64,000 nt of DNA from Halalkalirubrum salinum (GTDB lineage Archaea > Halobacteriota > Halobacteria > Halobacteriales > Haloferacaceae). A program made the position numbers and the translations under genes. Positions 7,750-21,981 of the stretch are shown here, piece by piece; within the stretch, counting starts at the first letter, position 1; every line of letters starts with the position of its first letter. The stretch lies in NCBI RefSeq assembly GCF_005543295.1, contig NZ_SRSG01000015.1, forward strand, positions 1 through 64,000, read 5' to 3'. A model generated the notes under the pieces. It worked only from the letters and a program-made list of their open reading frames with translations. It ran no database searches and was not told the DNA's origin.

Positions 7750-8385
7750 TCAGATCCAGTCCGTGATACCGACTACAGGTGTTCCATTGAGCTCGCGTCG
7801 GATGTCATTCTGATTCCAGTCAAGGGAAGACAATATGCTCTCGACAGCTCGGACCTGCTGCATCTCGTAGTACGACGCGTCGTAGGTGTCGATCTCTTCT
7901 GCGACTGCTAGGACGTCTCGGAGGTCCGTTTCCCGGCCACTGTGGGGCTTTGCTGCGACGAGGACAGCCCCATCGATGACTCTGGCTGTCGTCGTCACTG
8001 TACCCTCGCTCATCTCCTGTTGGTGGCTGTGGTCGTACTGGTAGTCGAACAACCACTGTGCCTCCGTCTGACGACACCTGTGTCCGTTTACCAGGGGGTC
8101 GAAGCCGGTCGGCTGCTGCGGCGTGAGCCGCTTCTCGTACTCGATCACTTCGGTGTCGTAGAACTATTTCTTGCCGTGGCTGTCCGTTTCCTCGAACCCC
8201 TGCTGTTCGAGGAATTCGACGAAGTCCGCCATGGATTCCGGCCCGACGAGAATATCGAGGTCCGTGGAGAAGCGTGCATTGAACGCTGAGACAGCGTAAC
8301 CGCCGACAAGGACGTACTCATGGTCCTCTTGGGTGAGCTCCTCGAGCAGTTCGATGAGCGCGTCACTTCAGTTGTGGAAGCTCAT
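7750..8385 (-). pseudogene. Nucleotidyltransferase (AbiEii/MNT-like) with two in-frame stops
   Basis: Reading from the ATG at 8385, the frame meets TGA at 8368-8370 after five codons. It then reads E-Y-V-L-V-G-G-Y-A-V-S-A-F-N and T-D-L-D-I-L-V, the G-G and D-x-D nucleotidyltransferase core, then meets TAG at 8164-8166. It continues in frame to the stop at 7750-7752. The second half alone is a 132-aa open frame. Two nonsense codons in one otherwise well-kept frame show recent inactivation. It follows its regulator gene (8397-9056) on the same strand, so it was the second gene of a regulator/nucleotidyltransferase pair. Confidence 0.75.
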
Positions 8386-8396
8386 GGCTGTGCCCG

Positions 8397-9056
8397 TTAC
8401 GTCTCCCGGTAGCTAACGCCGAGGTCGAGGTCCTCGTACATCCGGTCGAGCATCGCCAGCGCCGACTGGAACTGGGCGTAGTCCTCGCGCATGTACTCGA
8501 TCGTTTCTGCTCTCGGTATCACCGGGTACCCTTCGACGTGCTCGATATCGAGTGACGCCCGTGGCTCGAGGACTATCTGGAGCGGTCCGTCCACCTCGTC
8601 TCGGGGCTGTCGCTCCAATGCGGTCGGGAGGTCGAACCACTCGAAAAATGTCTCCCAGGCGTCGACGTCCTGCTCACGAACCGCAAGGAACAGTGGATAG
8701 TCGTCGGGATCGCGACCGACCTGATAGCCGCCCTGAGTCCACACGTAGACAGCGTCGATCCGCGTGAACGCGAACGGCCAGTCACTGAACTGTGGGATGA
8801 CGTACGTTTCCTCGATGGAGGGTGGACTGACGCCGGCGCTGGCAGCGACGAGCTTGAGCGCTGCGTCGTGCACGCGCTCGTCGACGACAGTGAGGCCGTT
8901 GTCATAGGAAACGTAGCCTGCGTCTTCCAGGCGATTAACGGCCTGTCTCACCGTCTCGTAGGGCGTGTGGAGGTGTTGGGCGACACGGCGGATGGAGTCA
9001 CCACTCTCAATGGCGAGGATGACCTGCGCCGCGGTGTCATCGAGAATCTCGTACAT
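8397..9056 (-). CDS. Winged-helix regulator paired with a nucleotidyltransferase
   Basis: About 219 aa from the ATG at 9056. A longer frame to 9185 exists, but its extra 43 residues are not protein-like and the promoter must lie there. Residues about 8-60 form a winged helix (R-R-V-A-Q-H-L-H-T-P-Y-E-T-V-R-Q-A-V-N-R-L). The rest is an alpha/beta domain of unknown role. It lies upstream of, and on the same strand as, the broken nucleotidyltransferase. The general plan matches the regulator/enzyme pair at 1913-3124. The promoter region contains two TGGTA-type half-sites (about 9060-9085). Likely autoregulator or antitoxin of the pair. Confidence 0.65.
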   Translation of the reverse strand: MYEILDDTAAQVILAIESGDSIRRVAQHLHTPYETVRQAVNRLEDAGYVSYDNGLTVVDERVHDAALKLVAASAGVSPPSIEETYVIPQFSDWPFAFTRIDAVYVWTQGGYQVGRDPDDYPLFLAVREQDVDAWETFFEWFDLPTALERQPRDEVDGPLQIVLEPRASLDIEHVEGYPVIPRAETIEYMREDYAQFQSALAMLDRMYEDLDLGVSYRET

Positions 9057-9340: not shown

Positions 9341-10069
9341 TCATTCGTCAGCAAGCCGTAGGTCATTTAATAGTGCAACTCCGCTGCCACAGTCACCGAA
9401 TCTGAGCTGTCGTGCCCAAGTATACGCTGCGAGATCCGCTAACTGCAGTCCTGGTGTTTGAGCACTGTCTCGGGTTTCGAATACGAGGTTTTCAGGCACG
9501 TTTTCGACGACGTCGAGTCCTGCCTCGAGCCGTTCAATGGGAGCTTGCCATACTTGAGCGTCCAATACGACCTTGATCTGGTCGATGCGAGTGAGATCAA
9601 TCATCTCTGCTTGGACAAGTGGATTCAGTATCGTTACCAGCGAAATCGATTGGAGAGCCTCGGGATGAGATGATTTTGCATTCAGATCTGTGCCTCCAAG
9701 TGTTTCTTTCAATATCTCAACCCCGAGATTAGGATTTAGATCATGCATCGTAACCCGGAGTGGGAGGCTGTCTGCCCACGGCAGCTGCTGGTGTTTTACA
9801 GAGGGATCATCATAGGCTGGTCCCCCGTTCAGACACTCGATCACCGAGAGAAGGACGCCTGTGGGAAGCTGGCTACCTTTGAGTTCAGATATTGGTTGTG
9901 AACTGTTCCGTAGTGAATTCGCTATCTCTGCCAGCGAGTCGACTGTTGATTGTAACGTTCGACTGGGATTCAACTCGTTAGAGATACACCATGTCCCCGC
10001 GACGACGTAGTATTTGCCCGAACTTGGATTACCTGATTCGTCGACAAAAATATAGAGATACCTCGTCAT
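9341..10069 (-). CDS. DUF3800 domain protein
   Basis: A 242-aa protein with the family's opening Y-I-F-V-D-E-S-G (residues about 6-12) and closing L-Q-L-A-D-L-A-A-Y near residue 213. These acidic residues form an RNase H-like active site in the family model. DUF3800 proteins are often found in mobile and defence-rich DNA and are suspected nucleases; the substrate is not established. It stands alone on the minus strand, divergent from the gene at 10156. The full length and both acidic motifs suggest it is intact. Confidence 0.8.
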   Translation of the reverse strand: MTRYLYIFVDESGNPSSGKYYVVAGTWCISNELNPSRTLQSTVDSLAEIANSLRNSSQPISELKGSQLPTGVLLSVIECLNGGPAYDDPSVKHQQLPWADSLPLRVTMHDLNPNLGVEILKETLGGTDLNAKSSHPEALQSISLVTILNPLVQAEMIDLTRIDQIKVVLDAQVWQAPIERLEAGLDVVENVPENLVFETRDSAQTPGLQLADLAAYTWARQLRFGDCGSGVALLNDLRLADE

Positions 10070-10851: not shown

Positions 10852-11009
10852 ATACAGCGCTGTCTTCGTTTCACTTCCACTCTGTGCCAGGTATTTACAA
10901 CACTGCCAGTCGAAGACTCAAAGTGTGATGGCAGCTACTCATCGTCCCGGCTTAGAGCCCGACAAGAAAGGCGGTCGAGATGGATATCGCCATCACCAGC
11001 AAGTAGGAG

Positions 11010-11157
11010 TGGGTCACTCCGAATCCACGCCTGCGGAGACTGCGGTCCCTGCGCGGATGGTCGGCCTCAGTCGAGCATACGCGAAAAAGCGTGTCGCGGA
11101 ACCAGGAAGCCCCTCCCTCAGCGAGCGCGTCAGCGCGAGCAGGGTGGGGTAGTTCAC
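11010..11157 (+). pseudogene. tnpB C-terminal relic plus right-end hairpin
   Basis: The open frame 10925-11152 ends with H-S-E-S-T-P-A-E-T-A-V-P-A and later V-A-E-P-G-S-P-S-L-S-E-R-V-S-A, the typical C-terminal tail of haloarchaeal IS1341-type TnpB proteins. The RNA-guided nuclease domain upstream is gone. The end hairpin follows at about 11105-11157 (C-rich arm, a GCGCGTCAGCGCG stem, then AGGGTGGGG), where the guide RNA scaffold normally lies. Non-functional as a transposon, though the 3' RNA structure seems preserved. Confidence 0.55.
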
Positions 11158-11246: not shown

Positions 11247-11807
11247 ATGACTGTCTACGTGTTTCGTGTCTGGCTCCATCCAAACCCACCGCTGGGCTTC
11301 GACCCCGCCAAGGAAGTCTGGCGCGACATCGAGATGGACGGCTCGCACACGCTGGCGACGTTTCACGAGGCGATTTTCGAGGCGTTCGAGCGCTGGGATA
11401 GCCACGCCTACGAGTTCATCACGCGCGACGAGGACGGCATCGCGCTCCGGAGCTACGTCCTCCCGATGCTCTACGAGGGCAATCCGAGTTGGCAATCGAT
11501 GGATGACGCGGAGATCGACCGCTTCATCGAACAGGCTGTACCCGACGACGCCTCGGATGACGCCAAAGCGCGATTTCGCAAACTCCAGTCGAACCCGCCG
11601 CCAGAGGGCAACGCCGCCGAGACAACGATCGACCGACTCGATCCGGACACGCTGGGCGCGCTCTCCTACACGTTTGATATGGGCGACAACTGGGAACACT
11701 ACATCGAACTACAAGGCACGCAGGAGGGATCGCTGGATGGTGATCCGGTTGTTGTCGACGAACAGGGCGCGGCACCGCCACAGTACCCCGACTCTGACGA
11801 ACAGTAA
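11247..11807 (+). CDS. pRiA4b ORF-3-like (MM3350-type) protein
   Basis: 186 aa from the ATG at 11247; a longer frame from 11091 runs through the tnpB-relic DNA and is rejected. The N-terminus reads V-Y-V-F-R-V-W-L then V-W-R-D-I-E, followed by H-T-L-A-T-F-H-E-A-I-F-E-A-F and later Y-T-F-D-M-G-D-N-W-E-H, the hallmarks of the plasmid pRiA4b ORF-3 family. The family is small, cytosolic and often plasmid- or transposon-borne; its role is unknown. First gene of a plus-strand run whose next gene starts three bases after its stop. Confidence 0.8.
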   Translation: MTVYVFRVWLHPNPPLGFDPAKEVWRDIEMDGSHTLATFHEAIFEAFERWDSHAYEFITRDEDGIALRSYVLPMLYEGNPSWQSMDDAEIDRFIEQAVPDDASDDAKARFRKLQSNPPPEGNAAETTIDRLDPDTLGALSYTFDMGDNWEHYIELQGTQEGSLDGDPVVVDEQGAAPPQYPDSDEQ

Positions 11808-11810
11808 GCT

Positions 11811-12650
11811 ATGCCACGCGACATCGCTCCGTTGACGAGCGCACTCGAGGACACAACGCCTGGCGAACAGAGTGATGTCTACAGTCTGCTTGCCGCGTGG
11901 AACCAGTCGATCGAGACTGCACTCGATCGCGGTGGCTGGAGTCGGTTGCAGGAGATCAGGGGTCAGTATCTCGAAGAAGTAATCGACTTCGTCGACACCG
12001 CTGCAACGACCGACGGGATCGATTGGGCCTTTCTCGAGGAGTGTGCCGATGCGTACCCGCCAGGTGTCGGCGATCACCACTGTTCGTCGATACTCGCCAA
12101 CGTTGTCGCTCGCTGTGTGATCCGCACGCGAATCCGCGAGGGCGTCGATGCGATCCCGACGTGGGCACTCGAATACCTCGCCGATGTCACCGTCGAGGAC
12201 GACAGCGAGTGGGCCTGGGAATCGACCGCCGCGTTCGGCTGGGCAGTCGGTCACCCGGAGATTGCCGTCCTCGATCGGACCCTCGAACGTGCTGAGAGCG
12301 GCGACGAATCGTGGGCGATGGGAATACTCGAACACGCCACGTTCGCCGACCCCGAGGCCGGAATCGACCTTCTCGAACGGCTTCTCGATTCGCCTGACGT
12401 CGTCGAGGATCTCCTGTTCGTCAGCTGTCTGCATGCGCCGTTCGAACAGAACTTTCCAGATTTCCCACAGTACTGGGTGCCAGACACGGAACTCGACTAT
12501 CACGTGGAGGTTTCCGACGACCTACACGAGCGACTGCTCGCCATCATCGGCCAGTCGATCGACCCCGGCCGTCTGCGACACTTCGACGGCTCCTACCGGT
12601 TCGATCTGGAACGGGCCGCAGACGAGTACGGCCCTGGGAACGACGCATGA
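11811..12650 (+). CDS. Helical protein of unknown function, paralogue of the gene at 13715
   Basis: A 279-aa acidic protein, mainly helical, with no metal site or membrane segment. Its middle reads C-V-I-R-T-R-I-R-E-G-V-D-A-I-P, then G-W-A-V-G-H-P-E, and it ends with F-P-Q-Y-W...E-L-D-Y. The same blocks in the same order occur in the zinc-finger protein at 13715-14704. The two are tandem paralogues separated by the SprT-like gene. Its stop overlaps the next start by four bases, so the genes are co-transcribed. I do not recognise the family. Confidence 0.65.
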   Translation: MPRDIAPLTSALEDTTPGEQSDVYSLLAAWNQSIETALDRGGWSRLQEIRGQYLEEVIDFVDTAATTDGIDWAFLEECADAYPPGVGDHHCSSILANVVARCVIRTRIREGVDAIPTWALEYLADVTVEDDSEWAWESTAAFGWAVGHPEIAVLDRTLERAESGDESWAMGILEHATFADPEAGIDLLERLLDSPDVVEDLLFVSCLHAPFEQNFPDFPQYWVPDTELDYHVEVSDDLHERLLAIIGQSIDPGRLRHFDGSYRFDLERAADEYGPGNDA

Positions 12651-13627
12651 CGGGGGACGAAACGCGCGTTCGTGCGGAAATCGAAGCCACGATCGATCGG
12701 GCGGATTTTGAACCGCTGGAGCCAGCGGCGATTCGTATCGACGTCACCGATTCCTTCCGCCGCAAGCTCGGCGAGTGTCGTCGGCTCTCCGTTGCCGACT
12801 GCGATGTCGAGGCCCCAGTCGAATACGAAATCAGAATCGCCTGCCGGCTGTTCGAGGACGGCCACGAGGGTCGGTGGCGCGATACGGTTCGTCACGAGGT
12901 CGCACACGCCTTCGTTTTGGAAACGGTCGGGTCGGATGTCGATCCTCACGGACCGGAGTGGAAGACCGCAGCACGCCGAGCGGGTGCGGACCCGGTTGCC
13001 CGGTGTGAGGATGAGGACCTCGTCGACTCGGCGTACGTACTCGCGTGCCCGAACGGGTGTTTCGAGCGCGGATACGTAAAGCGCTCCAAGCGGATCAAAC
13101 AGCCCTACCAGTACACCTGTGACGAGTGTGGGGCGACCCCGATCAGCTACGATGTCGGCGGGCGACCGGCCGATCCCGACCCGGGCACCTGTTACGTCGA
13201 GAGCATCCCGTGGCAGACAGCCGACGACCGTGATGAGCCAGACGACGCCAGAAGCACTGCCCGCTATCTGTTGGCCTGTCCGAACGGCTGTACGGCCTGG
13301 CCCTACCAGCGGCGCACCAAGCGGATCAAGAACCCGTGGCTGTACTTTTGTCCTGAGTGTGAGGCGACGCTCCTCAGTTGCGACATCGACGACAGTCCGA
13401 CCGACCTCGAACCCGGGCGGTGTCACGTCGGGAGTATCCCCTGGCAGGACCCGCAAATCGTCCACGCCTGCCCCAACGGCTGTTTCAGCACGGGACACGG
13501 ACAACACACCGAACAGACTAGACAGCCCGAGCGCTACCGGTGTGAGGAGTGTGGCGCTCGAACGGTCGCCTATCCAGCGGATGAGCGACCCGAAACCCTC
13601 GATCCAGGAACGAACTTCCTGGAGTGA
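12647..13627 (+). CDS. SprT-like zinc metalloprotease with three zinc-ribbon repeats
   Basis: A 326-aa protein. The protease part (about 1-120) has H-E-V-A-H (about 82-86, the HExxH zinc site) and a downstream H-G-P-E-W typical of SprT/Spartan-like domains. Three repeats follow, each opening A-C-P-N-G-C and closing with a C-x-x-C ribbon (C-D-E-C, C-P-E-C, C-E-E-C), usually with an R-I-K-x-P-x-x-Y-x-C stretch between. SprT-like enzymes of this fold can digest DNA-protein crosslinks, so a DNA-repair role is possible but not shown. The ATGA overlap with the preceding gene marks an operon. Tripled ribbons are unusual for the family. Confidence 0.8.
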   Translation: MTGDETRVRAEIEATIDRADFEPLEPAAIRIDVTDSFRRKLGECRRLSVADCDVEAPVEYEIRIACRLFEDGHEGRWRDTVRHEVAHAFVLETVGSDVDPHGPEWKTAARRAGADPVARCEDEDLVDSAYVLACPNGCFERGYVKRSKRIKQPYQYTCDECGATPISYDVGGRPADPDPGTCYVESIPWQTADDRDEPDDARSTARYLLACPNGCTAWPYQRRTKRIKNPWLYFCPECEATLLSCDIDDSPTDLEPGRCHVGSIPWQDPQIVHACPNGCFSTGHGQHTEQTRQPERYRCEECGARTVAYPADERPETLDPGTNFLE

Positions 13628-13714
13628 CCGTCCAGCCACGCTTTCGAATGCCGTGGGAGTGAGATCCCCGAACACAGATACGTCTCCCTCTCCTATGGCC
13701 AGACGACACAAACG

Positions 13715-14704
13715 ATGCCACACGAATGCGACGCCTGTGGCGAGACGTTCACCACGTTGAGCCGCCTTCGTCTACACGATTGTCCGGCCGACGAGCCAGA
13801 CGATCCGGACCCGCTGTCGTCGTTCGACGCGTTCCTGGATTCGATCTCGGATGGGCTCGAAGCTGACATGCAGCGAAACGTACAGGAGCGCGAGAAACGG
13901 GGACTGCAAGCCGCGAGCGACGCGCTGAAAACCACGCTCGAGGAAGCCGCCCAGGGAGACGTCGACGCTGCGTTCCGGTTAATCGGTCGGTACGAGCGAG
14001 AGCTTCGGGAGTACCACCACAGAGAAGACTACGACACGTATCGCGGGCTCCTCTGGGCGTTTTACGAGCCGGCCGCAACTGCCCTCGACGAGATCGCCAC
14101 GGGCGAGGGGTGGGAGTTTCTCGCCGATCTGATCGACGCGTATCCGCGAGAGAGCTCCGCCGACGAGCCCCTCGCGAGTCCGGTCATCGAGAACGCGGTC
14201 GGACGGCACGTCATCCGGACACGACTGCGCGAGGGCGTCGCGGCGATCCCCGTCGAAGCGCTGGCGTATCTCGGCTCGTTCTGGGAGTCGATGGGTGATA
14301 TCAGCGGGGAGGAATCGTTCACTTACGGATGGGGCATCGGGCATCCCGAGCACTCGATCGCAGACCACGTCCAGGAGGTGGTCACCGAGGAACTGTTCTG
14401 GGTACGGGGCGTGCTCCCGCATACGTTCTACGCCGACCAACACGCCGCGGCCGACCTGCTTGAGGGGTTGCTCACCGACGAGCAGATCGACTACGAGGAC
14501 CGATACCTGCTGGCGTCGATCCTAGCAACGGTCGATCACGATTCGACGCCGAAAATCCCCCGGTACTGGGATCATCGCAAGGAATTGGACTACCGGTTTG
14601 AGCTCGACGAGGCAGTTCGGTCGCGGGTGCGAGAGACGATCAAAGCCGAGGGATTCCACCGGCGACTGGGCGACGACTGGACGTTCAGCGACATGGAGCT
14701 ATGA
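13715..14704 (+). CDS. C2H2 zinc-finger helical protein of unknown function
   Basis: A 329-aa protein. Residues 1-25 form a C2H2-type finger (H-E-C-D-A-C-G-E-T-F, then L-R-L-H-D-C). A coiled, charged linker follows to about residue 95. The remaining ~230 residues match the protein at 11811 (H-V-I-R-T-R-L-R-E-G-V-A-A-I-P, G-W-G-I-G-H-P-E, I-P-R-Y-W...E-L-D-Y). The finger suggests nucleic acid or protein binding. Its stop overlaps the next start (ATGA at 14701). Function unknown. Confidence 0.65.
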   Translation: MPHECDACGETFTTLSRLRLHDCPADEPDDPDPLSSFDAFLDSISDGLEADMQRNVQEREKRGLQAASDALKTTLEEAAQGDVDAAFRLIGRYERELREYHHREDYDTYRGLLWAFYEPAATALDEIATGEGWEFLADLIDAYPRESSADEPLASPVIENAVGRHVIRTRLREGVAAIPVEALAYLGSFWESMGDISGEESFTYGWGIGHPEHSIADHVQEVVTEELFWVRGVLPHTFYADQHAAADLLEGLLTDEQIDYEDRYLLASILATVDHDSTPKIPRYWDHRKELDYRFELDEAVRSRVRETIKAEGFHRRLGDDWTFSDMEL

Positions 14705-16104
14705 GCGACATCGAGGAGACACTCGAAGAGACGCCGCCGGAGGTGCTCCGAGCGTTTCTCGCCCGGGAGTTGGCAACCGACAGGGACCTCGAACGGCGGT
14801 TCCACTCCTTTCTCGACACGTCGGATCTCGATGTCTACGAACTGCGAGACGAAATCGAATCCAAGTACGGGTACCAGTCTGCACCGAACTTCACCACCTA
14901 CGAAGACCGGGCAGCGTCGTACATCGAGAAGGGGCGATACCGCGACGCGGCGACTATCTATCGTGCGATGTTCGAGGCGATGCACGATCACCTCCACGAG
15001 TTCGATCCCCATCGGGGTGGGTTCGAACACGACGAAACCTTCCAGGACGCCATCGCGAACTACGCAACTGCTATCCGTGAAGCGAATCTCCAACACGAGG
15101 AGAAACGCGAGTACATCGAGTACTGTTTCGACCAGTGGTTCGACGAACACGAGGAGGGTGGCTTCCCACAGTACTTCCGAGAGGCACTGTGGGAGTTGTG
15201 CACGACCAAAGACGACTATCGCTACTGGCAAACTCTGCTGGGGGACCGTCTTGACGAGCGGCTCGATCCCGATCGACTCTACGGCGAGAAGTACGACGCG
15301 GACACGGAGACGTGGCACCGTGGTGATCTCACCACCCACGCCGACGAGGACGAGTTACTCGACGGCTTCACCGAAACCGCCTGGCTACGTGGCTACGTCG
15401 AACTGCTCGACCGCATCGACGAGCAGGCGGAGCTCGGAGCTATCCTCAACCGACACTATCCTGCATCTCGGCACCTCTGTCTCCGATATGCTCGACTCCT
15501 CGCGGAGGAAGGTGAACGCGAGGCCGCCATTACCGTCGCAGAGTACGGGACCGAGGCGTTCTCTGGGTCAGATACAATCGGGCTCCGTGAGTTCCTTGTC
15601 GATCAGTACGAGGAGACGGACGCCGACGCCTTCCGGGACACAATGATCGGGTTGTTCGTCGAACGGACGGACTGGCTGTACTACGAGCGGCTGCAGGCAG
15701 AAACGCCCGACGACGAATGGGAGCACGCGGTCAACACGATCGTCGACCGACTGGATAGTCGGTGGGACGCCGACACGATAATCGAAATATACCTGCGAGA
15801 GGATCGGATCGAAGACGCCTTCGAGACGGTCACGAACGCCCGCGATCTCGATCTGTTCGAAGCCTACATCGACCAACTCGGAGCCCACAATCCCGCCGAA
15901 TACTTCGATGCGTACCGTCGCGAGATCAAGAAGGCCGCTGCCGACGCGAGTCGTCGCAAGTATTACAGACAGGTCGCCGAACACCTCCAGACGATACAGA
16001 CGCTGGGACGTGACCGACGGTTCGAAAATCTCGTGTCGTTCTTGCGAGACGAGTACTCGAATCGCCCGGCGTTTCTCGACAAACTGGAGAAAGCTGGGAT
16101 CTGA
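14701..16104 (+). CDS. TPR-like helical repeat protein
   Basis: A 467-aa acidic protein built of helical hairpins. The N-terminus (E-V-L-R-A-F-L-A-R-E-L-A, D-L-E-R-R-F) resembles the region after the SWIM motif in haloarchaeal SWIM proteins, and the C-terminal R-I-E-D-A-F-E and F-L-R-D-E-Y-S segments resemble the C-terminus of the SWIM protein at 17252-19069. The CxCxnCxH motif itself is absent, so this may be a SWIM-less relative. Last gene of the plus-strand operon. Likely a protein-binding scaffold. Confidence 0.6.
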   Translation: MSDIEETLEETPPEVLRAFLARELATDRDLERRFHSFLDTSDLDVYELRDEIESKYGYQSAPNFTTYEDRAASYIEKGRYRDAATIYRAMFEAMHDHLHEFDPHRGGFEHDETFQDAIANYATAIREANLQHEEKREYIEYCFDQWFDEHEEGGFPQYFREALWELCTTKDDYRYWQTLLGDRLDERLDPDRLYGEKYDADTETWHRGDLTTHADEDELLDGFTETAWLRGYVELLDRIDEQAELGAILNRHYPASRHLCLRYARLLAEEGEREAAITVAEYGTEAFSGSDTIGLREFLVDQYEETDADAFRDTMIGLFVERTDWLYYERLQAETPDDEWEHAVNTIVDRLDSRWDADTIIEIYLREDRIEDAFETVTNARDLDLFEAYIDQLGAHNPAEYFDAYRREIKKAAADASRRKYYRQVAEHLQTIQTLGRDRRFENLVSFLRDEYSNRPAFLDKLEKAGI

Positions 16105-16119
16105 GTCTCGACCCCGATC

Positions 16120-16608
16120 TCATCCGAAGTAGTTCGGGAGGATGCCGTACGTTCTGGCGATCGAGATGATCTCTTCGCGGAACTCGTCTGACTCTGTACC
16201 GTGCGATTCCGCAAGTGCTTCGACCTCTGTGGAGTATGCCTCGCGAATTGCACTCGCTTCGGCCCGTCCCTCGACTGTCGGCTCCCAGAGAACTGTCGTC
16301 CCGTAGTCACCCGGTTCGAGTGGTGGACCAAGCCGCTCGCGCTCTCCGACACGCTCGATCAGGCCCAGCTCCTCGAGTGATTCGAGTGTCGTCTCGACCT
16401 CTGGTTCGAGATCCGCGTCCGCTGCGACAAACTGCTCGATCGATGGAAGTCCGGGTTCGTTCCCTGACGTGATGAGATCGAGTTCCGTACAGGCTGCGAC
16501 GAGGTCGTCCGTCGTTTTTTCAACGCCACCGTAATCGTGTTTGTAGCGTCTGTCGTGGGTAGTGAGTTGGTCGATAATGGTCCGTTCGATCCACGTCTCG
16601 GTTTGCAT
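16120..16608 (-). CDS. Conserved-looking protein of unknown function
   Basis: A 162-aa acidic, mostly helical protein with a winged-helix-like middle (V-E-T-T-L-E-S-L-E-E-L-G-L-I-E-R-V) and a C-terminal helical end, T-Y-G-I-L-P-N-Y-F-G. It lies tail-to-tail with the TPR-like gene (15 bp apart) and downstream of two minus-strand genes. I do not recognise it. Confidence 0.5.
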   Translation of the reverse strand: MQTETWIERTIIDQLTTHDRRYKHDYGGVEKTTDDLVAACTELDLITSGNEPGLPSIEQFVAADADLEPEVETTLESLEELGLIERVGERERLGPPLEPGDYGTTVLWEPTVEGRAEASAIREAYSTEVEALAESHGTESDEFREEIISIARTYGILPNYFG

Positions 16609-16688
16609 GAAAGAAGCATGTCCCCGGTGATAGAGAAACGTGTCGCACGAGCAGGAGAGTGCTCATCGAGAGCACCAGAAGATACTGA

Positions 16689-17231
16689 TCAGTCGAGTTC
16701 AGCCCGCTCCTTCAACTCGCCGACCAGAAGATCGAGGATCGCGTCTTTGTCTTCTTCGGGAACGTTTCTGCCGTCGAGGTCGTCGAACTTATCCTCCCAG
16801 TGGTCGATCCATGATCCGAACACGTCCTCGAAGGTCGCTTCCGGATCGTCTGCGGTCTTGACCTTCTCGATTTCCTCTTGGATGGCTCTTCCAACAGGTC
16901 CGTCTCCTAACTCGGCTTCGAGCACCATCCACGGTTCATACTCGAAGGTCGAGGAGAGCTCTTCGATATGCCACGTCTCGTCGTTGAGATCCAGTCGATA
17001 CTCCGTCATGATGTGAAACCGGGCGGGTGAAGTATCGAGCCCTGGCACACCCATGTCCGAGAGATACATCGTCGGATGACGCTCGATCTGAAACGAGAGC
17101 CACTCGTCTGCTTCAAGCTGGAATCCGAAAGCCCGCTCTCTGATCTTTTCCAGTGTCAGCCCATCTTCTGGCAGACCGGTATCGCGCTCGTCCAGCGCGA
17201 TGAGAACGCGGTCTCTAGTCGTCTTGTTCAT
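16689..17231 (-). CDS. Protein of unknown function in the SWIM gene cluster
   Basis: A 180-aa acidic cytosolic protein. It opens N-K-T-T-R-D-R-V-L-I-A-L-D-E and has a short beta-rich middle, M-T-E-Y-R-L-D-L-N-D-E-T-W. No known motif. It begins 20 bp after the SWIM protein gene on the same strand, so the two are probably co-transcribed. Confidence 0.55.
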   Translation of the reverse strand: MNKTTRDRVLIALDERDTGLPEDGLTLEKIRERAFGFQLEADEWLSFQIERHPTMYLSDMGVPGLDTSPARFHIMTEYRLDLNDETWHIEELSSTFEYEPWMVLEAELGDGPVGRAIQEEIEKVKTADDPEATFEDVFGSWIDHWEDKFDDLDGRNVPEEDKDAILDLLVGELKERAELD

Positions 17232-17251
17232 GTTTTCTCATCCGGTTTCTG

Positions 17252-19069
17252 TCAACACGAAAAGTCCTCCAGTAGATCGTCGAGCATCGGTCGGAGCTTG
17301 TACTTTTGGTAGTGTTCGTTCCGGAGTTCCTCCACGTAGGCACACCATTCGTCGAGCTGACCCGACACCCGGGCTGCCTTCCCCGCGTACTCCAGCCACC
17401 GAACGGCGTGTCGATACCGCTGGGATTGGCCCTCCTCGATGATCGGTTCGGCCTGCTCCTTGCAGGCGTCGATCGTCCAGTGAGGGTGTTCCTCCCAGAC
17501 GGCCTCGACGACCGGCTCTACGACCTTGTAGTCTGAAAAGCGATTCGCGATAGTGATGGCCTCGTCGTACCGCTCCGCGTACAGGAAGATCTCGACGTGC
17601 CGCGGCGCAACCCGCTGTCTCGTATTTTTGTCCACAAGCGATTTCAGTAACTCCTCGCGAACGTCCGGCCAGTCCTCACCGGCGAGTTCCTCCGCTGCCT
17701 GGTAGGCCGCAAGCGTCGGCGAGGCGTCGAACGCGGCGATGGCCGCCTCCAGCGCAACCTCGGATTCGCCCAAACTGACGGCCCGATCGCGGAGCCACTC
17801 GGCCAGCTCTGCTTTCCCGCTGCTGTCGTCGAGACGCAATCCGTGCTGGGCGATCTCGAGGGCGGCCTCCGGGCGGTCGTGTTTCCGAAGGGCTTTCGCC
17901 AGCGCGAGTGCTTCGTCCGGGGAGTACAGGTTTCGCCGGCCGTATTTGATTGCCTCGTCGATCCGACCCTCTTCGACGAGCATGGTGACGTAGTCGTCGA
18001 TCAGGTCCGCAGCCTCCGCCAGGTTCAGGTACTCCTCGATGCGGTCCTGACGTTCGAGCACGTCGAGTCGGACCCTGATGAAGTCCTCGGCGTACCACGG
18101 CGGGTCGCCCTCCCAGAGGTCCGCGTAGCCGATGTCACCCTGCATCGCTCGCTGGACTGGCTCGAAGTCCCAGCCCCGCTGGGCGGCTTCGAGGGCAATA
18201 CTGTACGGCGGGTGGTGAGTATAGCTTCCCATCTCCTGTTCCCACGTCCAGAGGCGATCCTCCCAGTCGGCACGCTCGGCCTCCGAGAGGTCGGCGGTGA
18301 GCAGCGCCTCGGCCAGCACTCGGTCAACCTCGTCGAAAAACTCGAAGATCGCGTTGGAATCGTCGTACGAGAGCGCGAGCCACTCCTCGTTCATAAGTTC
18401 GTTGGCCAGCGGTTCGAGGATATTCAGTGCCGTCTCTCCGTCGCCAGCCTCGACGGCTGTCCCTGCCTGGTCGAGCAGGTTTCGCAACTTCTCGACGTCA
18501 GTTTCGACGGCTTCATACGGGTCGTACGCATGGACGCTACGTCCCTCGGTGGGACGGAGAATGTACTGCACCTGCTGGCGGATCGACTCCCGATTGATGT
18601 CGGGCGTGCGGTCGCGAGCGTCATCGTCCGCCTCTTCGGACCGAACTGTTTCGAGCCGGGACTCGACCCGCTCTGCCAGCTCCGGGCGACTCTCGACGAG
18701 GTCAACGAGAACGCCACGGAGATCCTCGGGGTCCGCGTCGGCGACCAGTTCGGAGACTGGCGGTCGCTGGTCGATCCTGTCTGGATCACGGACGTACGTC
18801 AGGAGGACGGCGACACGGTGCTTGCAAATTCCGCCGTGATCGTACGGACAGGAACACGCCGTGTCGACGACCCCAGTTTCGTCGAGCTCGATCCGCACCT
18901 GGTAGGGCTCGTACTGGCTGCCTTCAACCGCCGCTCGGATCGTCTCACCGCGCCGGACAAGTTCGACGACGGCACCCTTGTCGTAGTAGTTCTCCCCCCG
19001 GTCGTATGACTGGGAATGTGCCAGATCCCGGACTGCTGCCTCCGTGAGTATCGGGTTGGGATCAACCAT
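17252..19069 (-). CDS. SWIM zinc-finger protein with helical repeats
   Basis: A 605-aa protein. The SWIM motif is C-S-C-P-Y-D-H-G-G-I-C-K-H (C72, C74, C82, H84), preceded by the usual R-x-x-x-Y-D-R-G-x-x-Y segment. From about residue 190 to the end it is helical repeats of TPR-like character. SWIM domains bind DNA or proteins, and archaeal SWIM proteins are sometimes linked to Swi2/Snf2 helicases, but no helicase is nearby. First gene of the three-gene minus-strand set facing the SprT/zinc-finger operon. The ATG at 19069 fits the family start. Confidence 0.8.
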   Translation of the reverse strand: MVDPNPILTEAAVRDLAHSQSYDRGENYYDKGAVVELVRRGETIRAAVEGSQYEPYQVRIELDETGVVDTACSCPYDHGGICKHRVAVLLTYVRDPDRIDQRPPVSELVADADPEDLRGVLVDLVESRPELAERVESRLETVRSEEADDDARDRTPDINRESIRQQVQYILRPTEGRSVHAYDPYEAVETDVEKLRNLLDQAGTAVEAGDGETALNILEPLANELMNEEWLALSYDDSNAIFEFFDEVDRVLAEALLTADLSEAERADWEDRLWTWEQEMGSYTHHPPYSIALEAAQRGWDFEPVQRAMQGDIGYADLWEGDPPWYAEDFIRVRLDVLERQDRIEEYLNLAEAADLIDDYVTMLVEEGRIDEAIKYGRRNLYSPDEALALAKALRKHDRPEAALEIAQHGLRLDDSSGKAELAEWLRDRAVSLGESEVALEAAIAAFDASPTLAAYQAAEELAGEDWPDVREELLKSLVDKNTRQRVAPRHVEIFLYAERYDEAITIANRFSDYKVVEPVVEAVWEEHPHWTIDACKEQAEPIIEEGQSQRYRHAVRWLEYAGKAARVSGQLDEWCAYVEELRNEHYQKYKLRPMLDDLLEDFSC

Positions 19070-19135
19070 CGCTCGTACGGTATCTACGGACTGGGCCGGT
19101 AGTAATTGTGGTGGATGGCCGCGGTTGCTGTGAGC

Positions 19136-19390
19136 CTACGAATCTGGAACCCAGACGCCGTTCCCGGGCTGGAAGACGACGTAGGTATCGACATCCGACA
19201 TGTTGGCCGGATGGGCGGTATGGAGTGTGAGTTCGCCCACCCGTTCATGTTCGCAGTTCTGTTCAGTCACCCACGCCTCCGCGTCTGCTTTCGAGTCGAA
19301 CGCAATCTGACGGTACTCGGTGAAATCCCCTTCCGCGAGTGGTATCTCGCGAAAGACTGAATCTTTGAGTTCCACGAGGTAGTCGACCAT
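19136..19390 (-). CDS. Small protein of unknown function
   Basis: 84 aa, beginning M-V-D-Y-L-V-E-L-K-D-S-V-F-R and containing A-F-D-S-K-A-D-A-E-A-W-V, an alpha/beta pattern with acidic composition typical of the host. The plus-strand frame at 19106-19360 overlaps it but is less haloarchaeal in composition. It lies upstream of the SWIM gene on the same strand. Confidence 0.5.
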   Translation of the reverse strand: MVDYLVELKDSVFREIPLAEGDFTEYRQIAFDSKADAEAWVTEQNCEHERVGELTLHTAHPANMSDVDTYVVFQPGNGVWVPDS

Positions 19391-19545
19391 GGCTGTTCGT
19401 TCGCGATAGCTCCGATTTAGACGGATCGGATACGGCCGTAACGGAAACGTTCTCCGTCGAAGTGTTCACGGCGACTGCGATCAGGTCGCCTGCAGGCCGG
19501 ACCGTCTGGTGGCGTGAAGACTACGTCGATGACGCCGCCGAGTGA
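19390..19545 (+). CDS. Possible small ORF without clear start
   Basis: An open frame with haloarchaeal-like composition reads F-V-R-D-S-S-D-L-D-G-S-D-T-A-V-T-E-T-F-S and ends W-W-R-E-D-Y-V-D-D-A-A-E at a TGA at 19543-19545. I see no good ATG or GTG start, so it may be a fragment or chance. It sits between two divergent genes. Confidence 0.25.
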   Translation, partial: WLFVRDSSDLDGSDTAVTETFSVEVFTATAIRSPAGRTVWWREDYVDDAAE

Positions 19546-19608
19546 AGAACGGAAATCCTCTCGAAGGCCGATCCAAGGAATTACGCCGTCATCCGATCAA
19601 CAACGCGT

Positions 19609-20205
19609 ATGGATCACACTCGCGAGGCGTTCGCCGACGCGCTCTCCTCGGGCGACACCGAGCACGTGAATCGCGCGATCGACGAAATCGAGAATACCGA
19701 ACTCGAGGAACGAGCCGCCCTGTTCGACGAGTGTTTCGATATGTGTCTCGACCTCTACGAGGCCGACGATGGATACCAGCGACAGTCCGTGATCCGCTTT
19801 GCGGCCGGTCTGTATCCGCGCCTGGCCTATCGAACGGTCGGTGCGGATCTCACCGGCGAGGCGTTACCGGGTGAGTGGACGCTCGACGAAATCGCGACCC
19901 ACCGCGAACGACTGCGGGACCTCTACGTGGACGCGCTCCGCGACGACGACGGCCGCGTACGACGCGCGGCCGCCAAGGCGATCAAGGAACTGGCGCTGAC
20001 CGCCGAGATGCTCGAAGCTGAGGATGAACTTCGGTCGATGATGGACGAACTGGACACGCTCGCCGAGGAGTGTGCAGACTCGAAGCGAAAACACGTCGAT
20101 CAGGCCTACGAGAACGTTGCCTTTCACGGGGAGAAGCCGTTTTCCCTACTCCCGGTCGGGCTTGGGGACGCGCTCGAAGGCGACGATCACAGTAGTGGAC
20201 GGTAG
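19609..20205 (+). CDS. HEAT-like helical protein
   Basis: A 198-aa acidic protein of paired helices; the stretch D-D-D-G-R-V-R-R-A-A-A-K-A-I-K-E-L-A is a typical HEAT-repeat unit. The N-terminus (A-F-A-D-A-L-S-S-G-D) also fits a helical-repeat fold. Probably a protein-interaction module. Not clearly in an operon with the next gene (88 bp gap). Confidence 0.6.
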   Translation: MDHTREAFADALSSGDTEHVNRAIDEIENTELEERAALFDECFDMCLDLYEADDGYQRQSVIRFAAGLYPRLAYRTVGADLTGEALPGEWTLDEIATHRERLRDLYVDALRDDDGRVRRAAAKAIKELALTAEMLEAEDELRSMMDELDTLAEECADSKRKHVDQAYENVAFHGEKPFSLLPVGLGDALEGDDHSSGR

Positions 20206-20292: not shown

Positions 20293-21255
20293 ATGTCATT
20301 CAGCGTGAGTTGGCACACGCTTCTCGACGAGGCCGAGGAACTTCCCTCGGACGCTACTCTCATCACACCACTCTCGCACAAGCGGTTTCGCATCACCGAC
20401 ACCCAGGAATACCGCGTGATCATCGAGCATCAGGAGTCCGGTGACTCTCATCCGCTCCAGCGCGAGCAGTTCGAGACGCTCTACCGGCGGATCCAAGAGA
20501 GGAATGGTCGCTTCGAGCTGGACCGGATTCCGGCAGACGCAGAGCCGTATGCTGCGGTCCTGACGCTCCATCCCCGATTCGAAATCGACGAGAAAGCTGG
20601 CGTCATCATCGAGACCGAGGAGCCGAGTGCCACGCACGTCATCGATGACGAAGAGTCAACGACAGAAGACCGGGTTGAACCGGATCTCGGAGTGTACTCG
20701 GATACACTCCTTCTGATTGATTCGCTTGAACGCCACGACCTCACTAATCTGACTGAACTCGACACAGACGCACTTGTGAACCTCTACACGCTACTCTCGG
20801 ACGTGCAACGTGGCGCGAACGACCTTCGGAAAGACATCGCCGATACCCTCCTTGATCGAGTCCATCACGACCAGCCAGTTCATGCCCAGTACGGCTCCGT
20901 CCAACGAACTTCGCGCCGGTCGAAGTCACTGAAAGACGACACGGAGGTCCTCGCTGCGTTGGAGGACGCCGGTATCGATCGGGATCGTGTCCTCGGCGTA
21001 GACCCGGACAAGGTTGATGATGCACTTGACGTGACTGACCTCCACGAGCAGGACGTCTACGACATCGATGAGCGAGCGTACGTCAGGAAAGCCGACGTCA
21101 ACGAGGACGTGAAAGAGACGCGATTGCAGGGATTGAAGGACCGACTCGCGGCCACTGAAAGCGAAGAGGCAGACGTACTCCGAAGCGAGATCGAAGACTT
21201 GGAAAATCGAATCGACGAACTCACGAGCTTTCGCACTGGCTCCGAGGTGCAATGA
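20293..21255 (+). CDS. Haloarchaeal protein of unknown function with C-terminal coiled coil
   Basis: 320 aa from the ATG at 20293; an upstream ATG at 20242 is in frame but less likely. The N-terminal ~100 residues are beta-rich (S-V-S-W-H-T-L-L-D-E-A-E-E-L, then H-K-R-F-R-I-T-D). The middle is helical and the last ~45 residues form a likely coiled coil (E-E-A-D-V-L-R-S-E-I-E-D-L-E-N-R-I-D-E-L). No catalytic motif is evident. It faces the pair C effector tail-to-tail. Confidence 0.55.
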   Translation: MSFSVSWHTLLDEAEELPSDATLITPLSHKRFRITDTQEYRVIIEHQESGDSHPLQREQFETLYRRIQERNGRFELDRIPADAEPYAAVLTLHPRFEIDEKAGVIIETEEPSATHVIDDEESTTEDRVEPDLGVYSDTLLLIDSLERHDLTNLTELDTDALVNLYTLLSDVQRGANDLRKDIADTLLDRVHHDQPVHAQYGSVQRTSRRSKSLKDDTEVLAALEDAGIDRDRVLGVDPDKVDDALDVTDLHEQDVYDIDERAYVRKADVNEDVKETRLQGLKDRLAATESEEADVLRSEIEDLENRIDELTSFRTGSEVQ

Positions 21256-21324: not shown

Positions 21325-21981
21325 TCAATCCAGACGGTCGAGCGATCCATAGAGCTCCTCGTTCTGAATGTGGGTACAGAACTGTGCGCAGAGCCGACAA
21401 CAGTCCGCGGCATCGGTGAACGTCCGGACGCTGGCGTCCCAGCGGGCGTTGACGGACCCAAGCATCGCACTTCGAACCGATGGTTCGGTCGCGACCATCA
21501 CCCGTCGTGTACGCTCCGGTGGGGTCGCGTCGGCCGCAGGCCCTTGCATTCCATCCGACGACAGGAGATCCTCGAGGACGCTCCCGATCTCGATGCCGAC
21601 GCCGAGGTTATCGCCGACCTCTGGGGCGATGAAAATCGTCGCGTTACTCCCCCGCGCAAAGGCTATACTCTGTGTAGCGGCATCCATCTCGTCGAGCGGA
21701 ATCCCGACATCGATAGCGAGGAAGGAATTGAACCCACGGTCGCGGAGACAGTCTCGGGTTTCCTGCAGGAGCCGCAGGACGTCGTCTTCGGCGTACTCCC
21801 CGCTCGCCTCGTCCCACGTCGCAAACGACGGGACGTCGGTATCTTCTGGCAGCAGCGCCTCGACGTCGAACGTCCGGTATGGTCCCATCAGGTAGACGAG
21901 AAACTGTTCCCGCCGGACGGGGGTGAGCACATCCGAGTCTCCAGCGGCACGAGGGAGATCGTCGATAATCCGTTGCCGCAT
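21325..21981 (-). CDS. DUF7509-like NDT/TIR-fold effector (pair C)
   Basis: A 218-aa protein. The first strand reads F-L-V-Y-L-M-G-P-Y-R (G-P-Y at 33-35), then a helix with L-R-D-R-G-F-N-S-F-L-A-I-D-V, A-T-I-F-I-A-P-E-V-G-D-N and G-I-E-I-G (E131). This is the same order of elements as in the effectors at 1023 and 4430: glycine-aromatic strand, helix, a second strand ending in Asp, a third strand, then a glycine-rich turn before E-x-G. A cysteine cluster near the end (D-C-C-R-L-C-A-Q-F-C) is specific to this copy and could bind metal. I recall this as a haloarchaeal DUF7509-type protein. Divergent from its winged-helix gene at 22095. Confidence 0.65.
   Translation of the reverse strand: MRQRIIDDLPRAAGDSDVLTPVRREQFLVYLMGPYRTFDVEALLPEDTDVPSFATWDEASGEYAEDDVLRLLQETRDCLRDRGFNSFLAIDVGIPLDEMDAATQSIAFARGSNATIFIAPEVGDNLGVGIEIGSVLEDLLSSDGMQGPAADATPPERTRRVMVATEPSVRSAMLGSVNARWDASVRTFTDAADCCRLCAQFCTHIQNEELYGSLDRLD

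Follow-up and report, generated by a model that had tools for sequence, protein, structure and literature searches.

A 64,000-nucleotide stretch at the start of a 136,788-base contig of the haloarchaeon Halalkalirubrum salinum (NZ_SRSG01000015.1; this stretch is the window throughout) carries, at 11247-20205, a gene cluster in which an operon encoding a SprT-like metalloprotease faces a set of opposite-strand genes that includes a SWIM zinc finger protein. The cluster was proposed in a preliminary description made from the DNA alone, and independent gene calling recovers all of the genes described, at the same positions. The plus-strand operon opens with RIA (11247-11807, 186 residues), a pRiA4b ORF-3-like protein (PF07929, PRiA4_ORF3, E=1.2e-17) with a weak PDB sequence match, 2i1s. 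It continues with HEL (11811-12650, 279 residues), a helical protein without a Pfam domain, the SprT-like protease (12647-13627, 326 residues), zfHEL (13715-14704, 329 residues), in which a C2HC-type zinc finger is fused to a HEL alpha-solenoid, and a SWIM-family solenoid protein that lacks the SWIM finger (14701-16104, 467 residues). Successive junctions measure +3 nt, a 4-nt overlap (HEL with SprT), +87 nt and a second 4-nt overlap, three of the four being near zero, as had been described. The 605-residue SWIM protein (17252-19069) does lie on the minus strand, but it does not lead that set as first thought: an 84-residue gene, F9 (19136-19390, minus strand), directly upstream, precedes it. 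All tested genes show dN/dS of 0.20-0.33 against Haloterrigena (F7, described below, against Halorubrum ezzemoulense), with HEL at 0.22, and this purifying selection indicates that they are not chance open reading frames. Promoter and terminator scans, which do not cover haloarchaeal promoters, gave no more than shuffled sequence did.

The SprT-like domain of the protease (PF10263, E=4.6e-11) scores 43 bits against a curated cut-off of 25.6, and the catalytic and zinc residues are intact: six relatives, with identities as low as 60%, show no change in the HEVAH motif (H83, E84, H87), in the downstream H101 or in any of the 12 ribbon cysteines. A single 60-residue unit, repeated in tandem, makes up the three ribbons (31/60 and 25/60 identical), whereas ordinary haloarchaeal SprT proteins carry no more than one ribbon and do not have the CPxGC unit. 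Genes of the triple-ribbon kind are rare, being intact in 4 of the 392 genomes of the order, with one further remnant. The residues present predict an active protease. It resembles the DNA-dependent SprT/Spartan (SPRTN), which digests DNA-protein crosslinks (PMC5128727), in that both combine a SprT-like domain bearing HExxH with a downstream histidine and a zinc ribbon. The window protein differs from SPRTN in having three tandem ribbons instead of one, in being encoded together with the HEL solenoid and in its location on archaeal plasmids.

The remaining large proteins appear to be scaffolds. HEL and the body of zfHEL, described at first simply as two helical proteins, are indeed helical and prove to be paralogues of each other (31% identity), so that the scaffolds come in bare and zinc-finger forms, HEL/zfHEL and solenoid/SWIM-solenoid. 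The finger of zfHEL recurs through its family, yet is not the classic C2H2 module first proposed, having an atypical C-x2-C-x12-H-x-C pattern that falls below the Pfam threshold (E ~0.13). An AlphaFold model of zfHEL (pLDDT 90.3) is a nearly all-helix solenoid with the finger at its N-terminus; a fold search of the PDB returned no match at E<=0.001, and a known fold for the HEL family was rejected on this basis. The last protein of the operon, previously called TPR-like, is a solenoid that converges with the SWIM family profile, and its nearest plasmid relatives are annotated as SWIM zinc finger proteins. Since all its other copies found are interrupted or shortened, we regard it as an accessory, the least needed part. 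The SWIM protein itself contains the CxCx(n)CxH motif (CSCPYDHGGICKH; PF04434, 8e-8, 32.1 bits against a cut-off of 19.6), and its model (pLDDT 86) consists of the SWIM finger plus a TPR-like solenoid. Its closest PDB match by both sequence (E 2.6e-8) and fold (E 2.2e-10) is ZSWIM8, of the CUL3 substrate receptors, in which a SWIM finger is likewise followed by a long helical solenoid; the global TM of only ~0.27, from a comparison on SWIM plus solenoid alone, makes this an analogy of architecture. The dimeric receptor that ZSWIM8 forms for its protein substrates is organised by the SWIM domain (PMC13083262), and only by that analogy is a receptor role for the haloarchaeal protein supported. 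In its N-terminal part this protein (P0008) also matches the PADLOC candidate PDC-S62 (E 5e-22), an alignment of the SWIM region in which only ~130 of 566 positions match a candidate not functionally established. Haloarchaea are not known to possess a cullin. HEL-family genes occur in 39/392 genomes of the order and SWIM-family genes in 14/195 genomes.

These genes travel together among other haloarchaea. At nine of ten loci the gene immediately before the triple-ribbon SprT is HEL, reduced in two of them to a C-terminal remnant; at the tenth a TnpB-type gene stands there instead. Haloterrigena sp. H1 and Natrinema hispanicum share the order RIA-HEL-SprT-zfHEL-solenoid facing F6-SWIM-F9 (proteins ~72-90% identical); F7 is missing from both, and their solenoid gene is interrupted by a TnpB-type insertion. 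F6 (16120-16608, minus strand, 162 residues), at the convergent end of the window cluster, and F7 (16689-17231, minus strand, 180 residues) are orphans without a family; F6 is in place in L010, L019, L022, L027, L029 and L033, and F9 in L009, L010, L019, L027, L029 and L033. A compact variant in Halovenus salina joins RIA-HEL-SprT-SWIM in a single operon, G105 has HEL-SprT-SWIM with an F7 homologue upstream, and Halococcus thailandensis contig_100 retains F7-RIA-HEL-SprT as far as an insertion; the F7 homologue (~31%) of the compact variant lies upstream of RIA. G201 holds a decayed copy consisting of RIA, the last 48 SprT codons, zfHEL, the end of the solenoid gene, F6, F7, a frameshifted SWIM gene and F9, and parts of the cassette occur in H. 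thailandensis, Saliphagus and a Halorubrum metagenome-assembled genome. The minus-strand set is found without SprT on N. pellirubrum pNATPE01, an N. breve plasmid and the Halorubrum ezzemoulense megaplasmid. The preliminary description would have been refuted had the genes rarely occurred together elsewhere, and this is not the case. That the cluster travels as a unit is upheld in a refined form: the core is HEL-SprT plus RIA and SWIM, and the wider gene pool forms a modular island, not one fixed system. Nearly all named relatives are located on plasmids, and in the window a ParA gene lies 3 kb away, as would be expected if SprT served plasmid maintenance or regulation by cleaving a plasmid-encoded regulator or replication protein and so setting copy number or expression. 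The cassette is however also present on a chromosome-sized contig (G201:C8, 3.1 Mb), most related plasmids are without it and no conserved regulator or target gene adjoins the HEL-SprT pair, and we judge this explanation improbable.

The neighbourhoods of HEL and SWIM loci, which were fetched and labelled with profiles built in this analysis, connect the same families to enzymes of repair families. Pairs of an accessory XPB-like helicase and a Bax1-like nuclease (~450 residues) recur there, Bax1 being present at 10 of 30 HEL loci (447 kb) against a chance expectation of ~0.14, at roughly one Bax1 per genome. Three of ten SWIM loci also carry Bax1, and eight of the ten carry RIA relatives. Family matches in these sister islands are 2.8e-62 for XPB, 2.6e-56 for Bax1 and 9.9e-20 for the MrfA Zn-binding domain. 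An MrfA/Hrq1-like helicase adjoins zfHEL and SWIM in L091, and one island (L158 1600-14700, G083:C53) unites two SWIM proteins, XPB-like and Bax1-like proteins, CcbP, RIA, an MrfA/Hrq1-like helicase and F11. The last is a 320-residue protein encoded in the window at 20293-21255 (plus strand) and a frequent neighbour in the wider islands, at 11/30 HEL loci, 8/12 accessory Bax1 loci and 0/28 control loci. When 12 accessory Bax1 loci were picked by DUF790 alone, ten had at least one of SWIM, RIA, CcbP, HEAT, F11, c12 and MrfA, with the SWIM family in three. That HEL, SWIM and RIA relatives recur beside accessory XPB-Bax1-like pairs and MrfA/Hrq1-like helicases is new here. XPB-Bax1 is a structurally characterised helicase-nuclease repair complex (PMC7293015), and MrfA/MrfB repair mitomycin damage (PMC11194089); the wider YprA family of MrfA/Hrq1 includes helicases of DISARM, Druantia and Dpd. 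The window differs from its sister islands in lacking these enzymes: XPB and Bax1 have no match in the 64 kb, the only Bax1 of this genome being on contig C19, and the MrfA Zn-binding domain is absent from the cassette, the sole PF09369 match of the genome being on C25. In L021 a fragment called as MrfA shares part of its span with F11 and was counted as a remnant at most. Directly upstream of RIA, short fragments that cluster with XPB are seen in L029 (7772-8224, Haloterrigena) and L033 (~8000-8300, N. hispanicum), perhaps traces of an ancestral XPB-Bax1 neighbour. On a Halorussus aquaticus plasmid (L038 7001-11077) a HEL relative adjoins a macro domain protein and a CDC48-type ATPase.

The module families are found at none of seven chromosomal Bax1 loci and none of 21 ordinary SprT loci. 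We therefore rejected the idea that the association stems from ordinary SprT genes; it belongs to the accessory islands, not to Bax1 or SprT generally. These controls also bear on the view that there is no system at all, merely plasmid genes heaped in insertion hotspots and linked by common descent. Many IS and TnpB elements do occur in the loci, and genes shuffle and decay, in keeping with that view. It fits poorly, however, with an identical order at 80-90% identity in Natrialbaceae, with the recombination of the same families into a second operon order in other families, with purifying selection in each tested gene and with the absence of the module families from all 28 control loci, and it seems to us the least probable of the explanations weighed here.

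We favour the view that the cluster is a modular, plasmid-borne, DNA-repair-like cassette in which SprT digests proteins that are crosslinked to DNA or bind it tightly, and put its probability at about 0.45. The preliminary description had thought a repair or anti-element system conceivable, and this idea gains support since members of the XPB-Bax1-like and MrfA/Hrq1-like repair families are repeatedly neighbours of HEL, SWIM and RIA relatives. Judged from gene neighbourhood and family identity, the SprT metalloprotease would be the effector and HEL, an alpha-solenoid, its dedicated partner, holding or positioning the protease, as their linkage and the overlapping start and stop codons on the same mRNA suggest. 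The domain types of the scaffolds point to binding of DNA or protein, and the three zinc ribbons, the zfHEL finger and the SWIM-solenoid may carry the protease to DNA and its attached protein. Digestion there, presumably within a complex of these components, would allow forks or repair enzymes to pass. In the sister islands an XPB-Bax1-like helicase-nuclease or an MrfA/Hrq1-like helicase would take the place of the enzyme on the same scaffold families, and it is these neighbours that point to repair as the outcome.

Several observations weigh against this reading. The XPB and Bax1 matches fall under the NCBIfam curated cut-offs, and six of the XPB- or Bax1-bearing HEL loci share one arrangement (HEL facing a 119-residue gene, XPB, Bax1), reducing the independent arrangements to about five. 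HEL is present at 0/12 of the independently chosen accessory Bax1 loci, so the island association is asymmetric for HEL. Plasmid genes may generally tend to lie together, and the controls are chromosomal Bax1 and ordinary SprT baits only. Dark repair in Halobacterium is by uvrABC, its XPB homologues being judged not involved in nucleotide excision repair (PMC1590041), and an XPB neighbour therefore does not prove repair. Lastly, patchy, plasmid-borne and rapidly decaying copies also fit defence.

Antiviral or anti-plasmid defence is indeed the main rival, somewhat less probable in our estimate than repair. Here the scaffolds would recognise a replication or packaging complex of the invader, whose protein on the DNA, such as a terminal or initiator protein, SprT would digest; alternatively, the cassette would trigger cell arrest. 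The plasmid location, the occurrence in 1-2% of genomes and the frequency of decayed copies are as expected for such a system, and an AbiE-like pair adjoins several loci. In Pseudanabaena a SWIM relative is separated from DISARM genes by a few kb, and in Euhalothece one is close to CRISPR III-B. The match of the SWIM N-terminus to PDC-S62 points the same way, but RIA, HEL, zfHEL, F6, F7 and Bax1 are without a PADLOC match; among the sister-island helicases, the MrfA-like one is similar to SngC, BrxH and Druantia helicases and XPB to PbeA, but these matches may reflect common SF2 domains. The window cassette moreover encodes neither a nuclease nor a methylase, and no obvious toxin. We rejected the idea that it belongs to a described defence system, as no complete PADLOC system is present and the only strong match is the single-gene candidate PDC-S62. 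Viral origin or carriage was also considered, and viral contigs yielded no P0003 relative and no HEL-pattern match, in tests that are weak and used few patterns.

The claim that no known system has this composition stands provisionally: none was found in PADLOC, NCBIfam, PHROGs, Pfam or open-access papers, subscription papers being outside the search. The component families are known or orphan, and it is their combination that had not been found before in the libraries and papers searched. Among the open-access papers searched, none joins SWIM, SprT, defence and archaea, the sole haloarchaeal SWIM paper found merely lists a provirus gene, and papers on YprA and phosphorothioation leave SWIM, SprT and Bax1 unmentioned. 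A dedicated archaeal SprT pathway with partners is not known to have been described.

The surroundings of the cassette contain further genes and remnants. G+C is 58-63% in the cluster region and 50-57% in much of the surrounding window, and a TnpB-like transposase-end remnant (48% identity; 10949-11149, plus strand) lies shortly before the operon, close to the border of that high-G+C block. Farther upstream are a DUF3800 protein (9341-10069, minus strand; PF12686, E 1.4e-9) and, 2-3 kb from the cluster, an AbiEii/AbiEi-like gene pair (7750-9056, minus strand), the first gene of which is truncated; similar pairs lie beside HEL genes in L023, L025/L032, L089 and L103. Beyond F9, a plus-strand remnant, c44 (19408-19539), matches the last 44 of 128 residues (86% identity) of a gene deleted in the window, whose intact copy in N. 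pellirubrum stands between F9 and the HEAT gene. The last gene of the interval first described encodes a HEAT-like protein (19609-20205, 198 residues; HEAT match below threshold) and is read on the plus strand, in the direction away from the SWIM set; relatives 90-93% identical adjoin SWIM on other plasmids, and the family is also found beside XPB-Bax1. A DUF7509 protein (21325-21981, minus strand) has an 89% identical copy adjoining the SWIM set of N. pellirubrum.

Our analysis suggests that this set of about nine genes, which moves between haloarchaeal plasmids, forms a mobile system not described before, whose task would be to free DNA of proteins stuck on it or, by the same means, to attack invaders. 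A bolder proposal, which we consider possible but doubtful, is a new prokaryotic system in which a triple-ribbon SprT, licensed by HEL and targeted by SWIM-solenoid and finger-solenoid receptors, would strip proteins from DNA, with protease, helicase-nuclease and crosslink helicase acting as interchangeable effectors on a common scaffold set. The removal of DNA-stuck proteins in prokaryotes is a poorly known process. With the closely linked partner HEL and a well-defined scaffold set, the cassette is a small candidate for it that can be tested genetically. One testable hypothesis thereby ties families without a function (HEL, RIA, SWIM-solenoid and F11) to XPB-Bax1 and MrfA/Hrq1; should the cassette instead prove defensive, archaeal plasmids would have in it an anti-element system centred on a protease.

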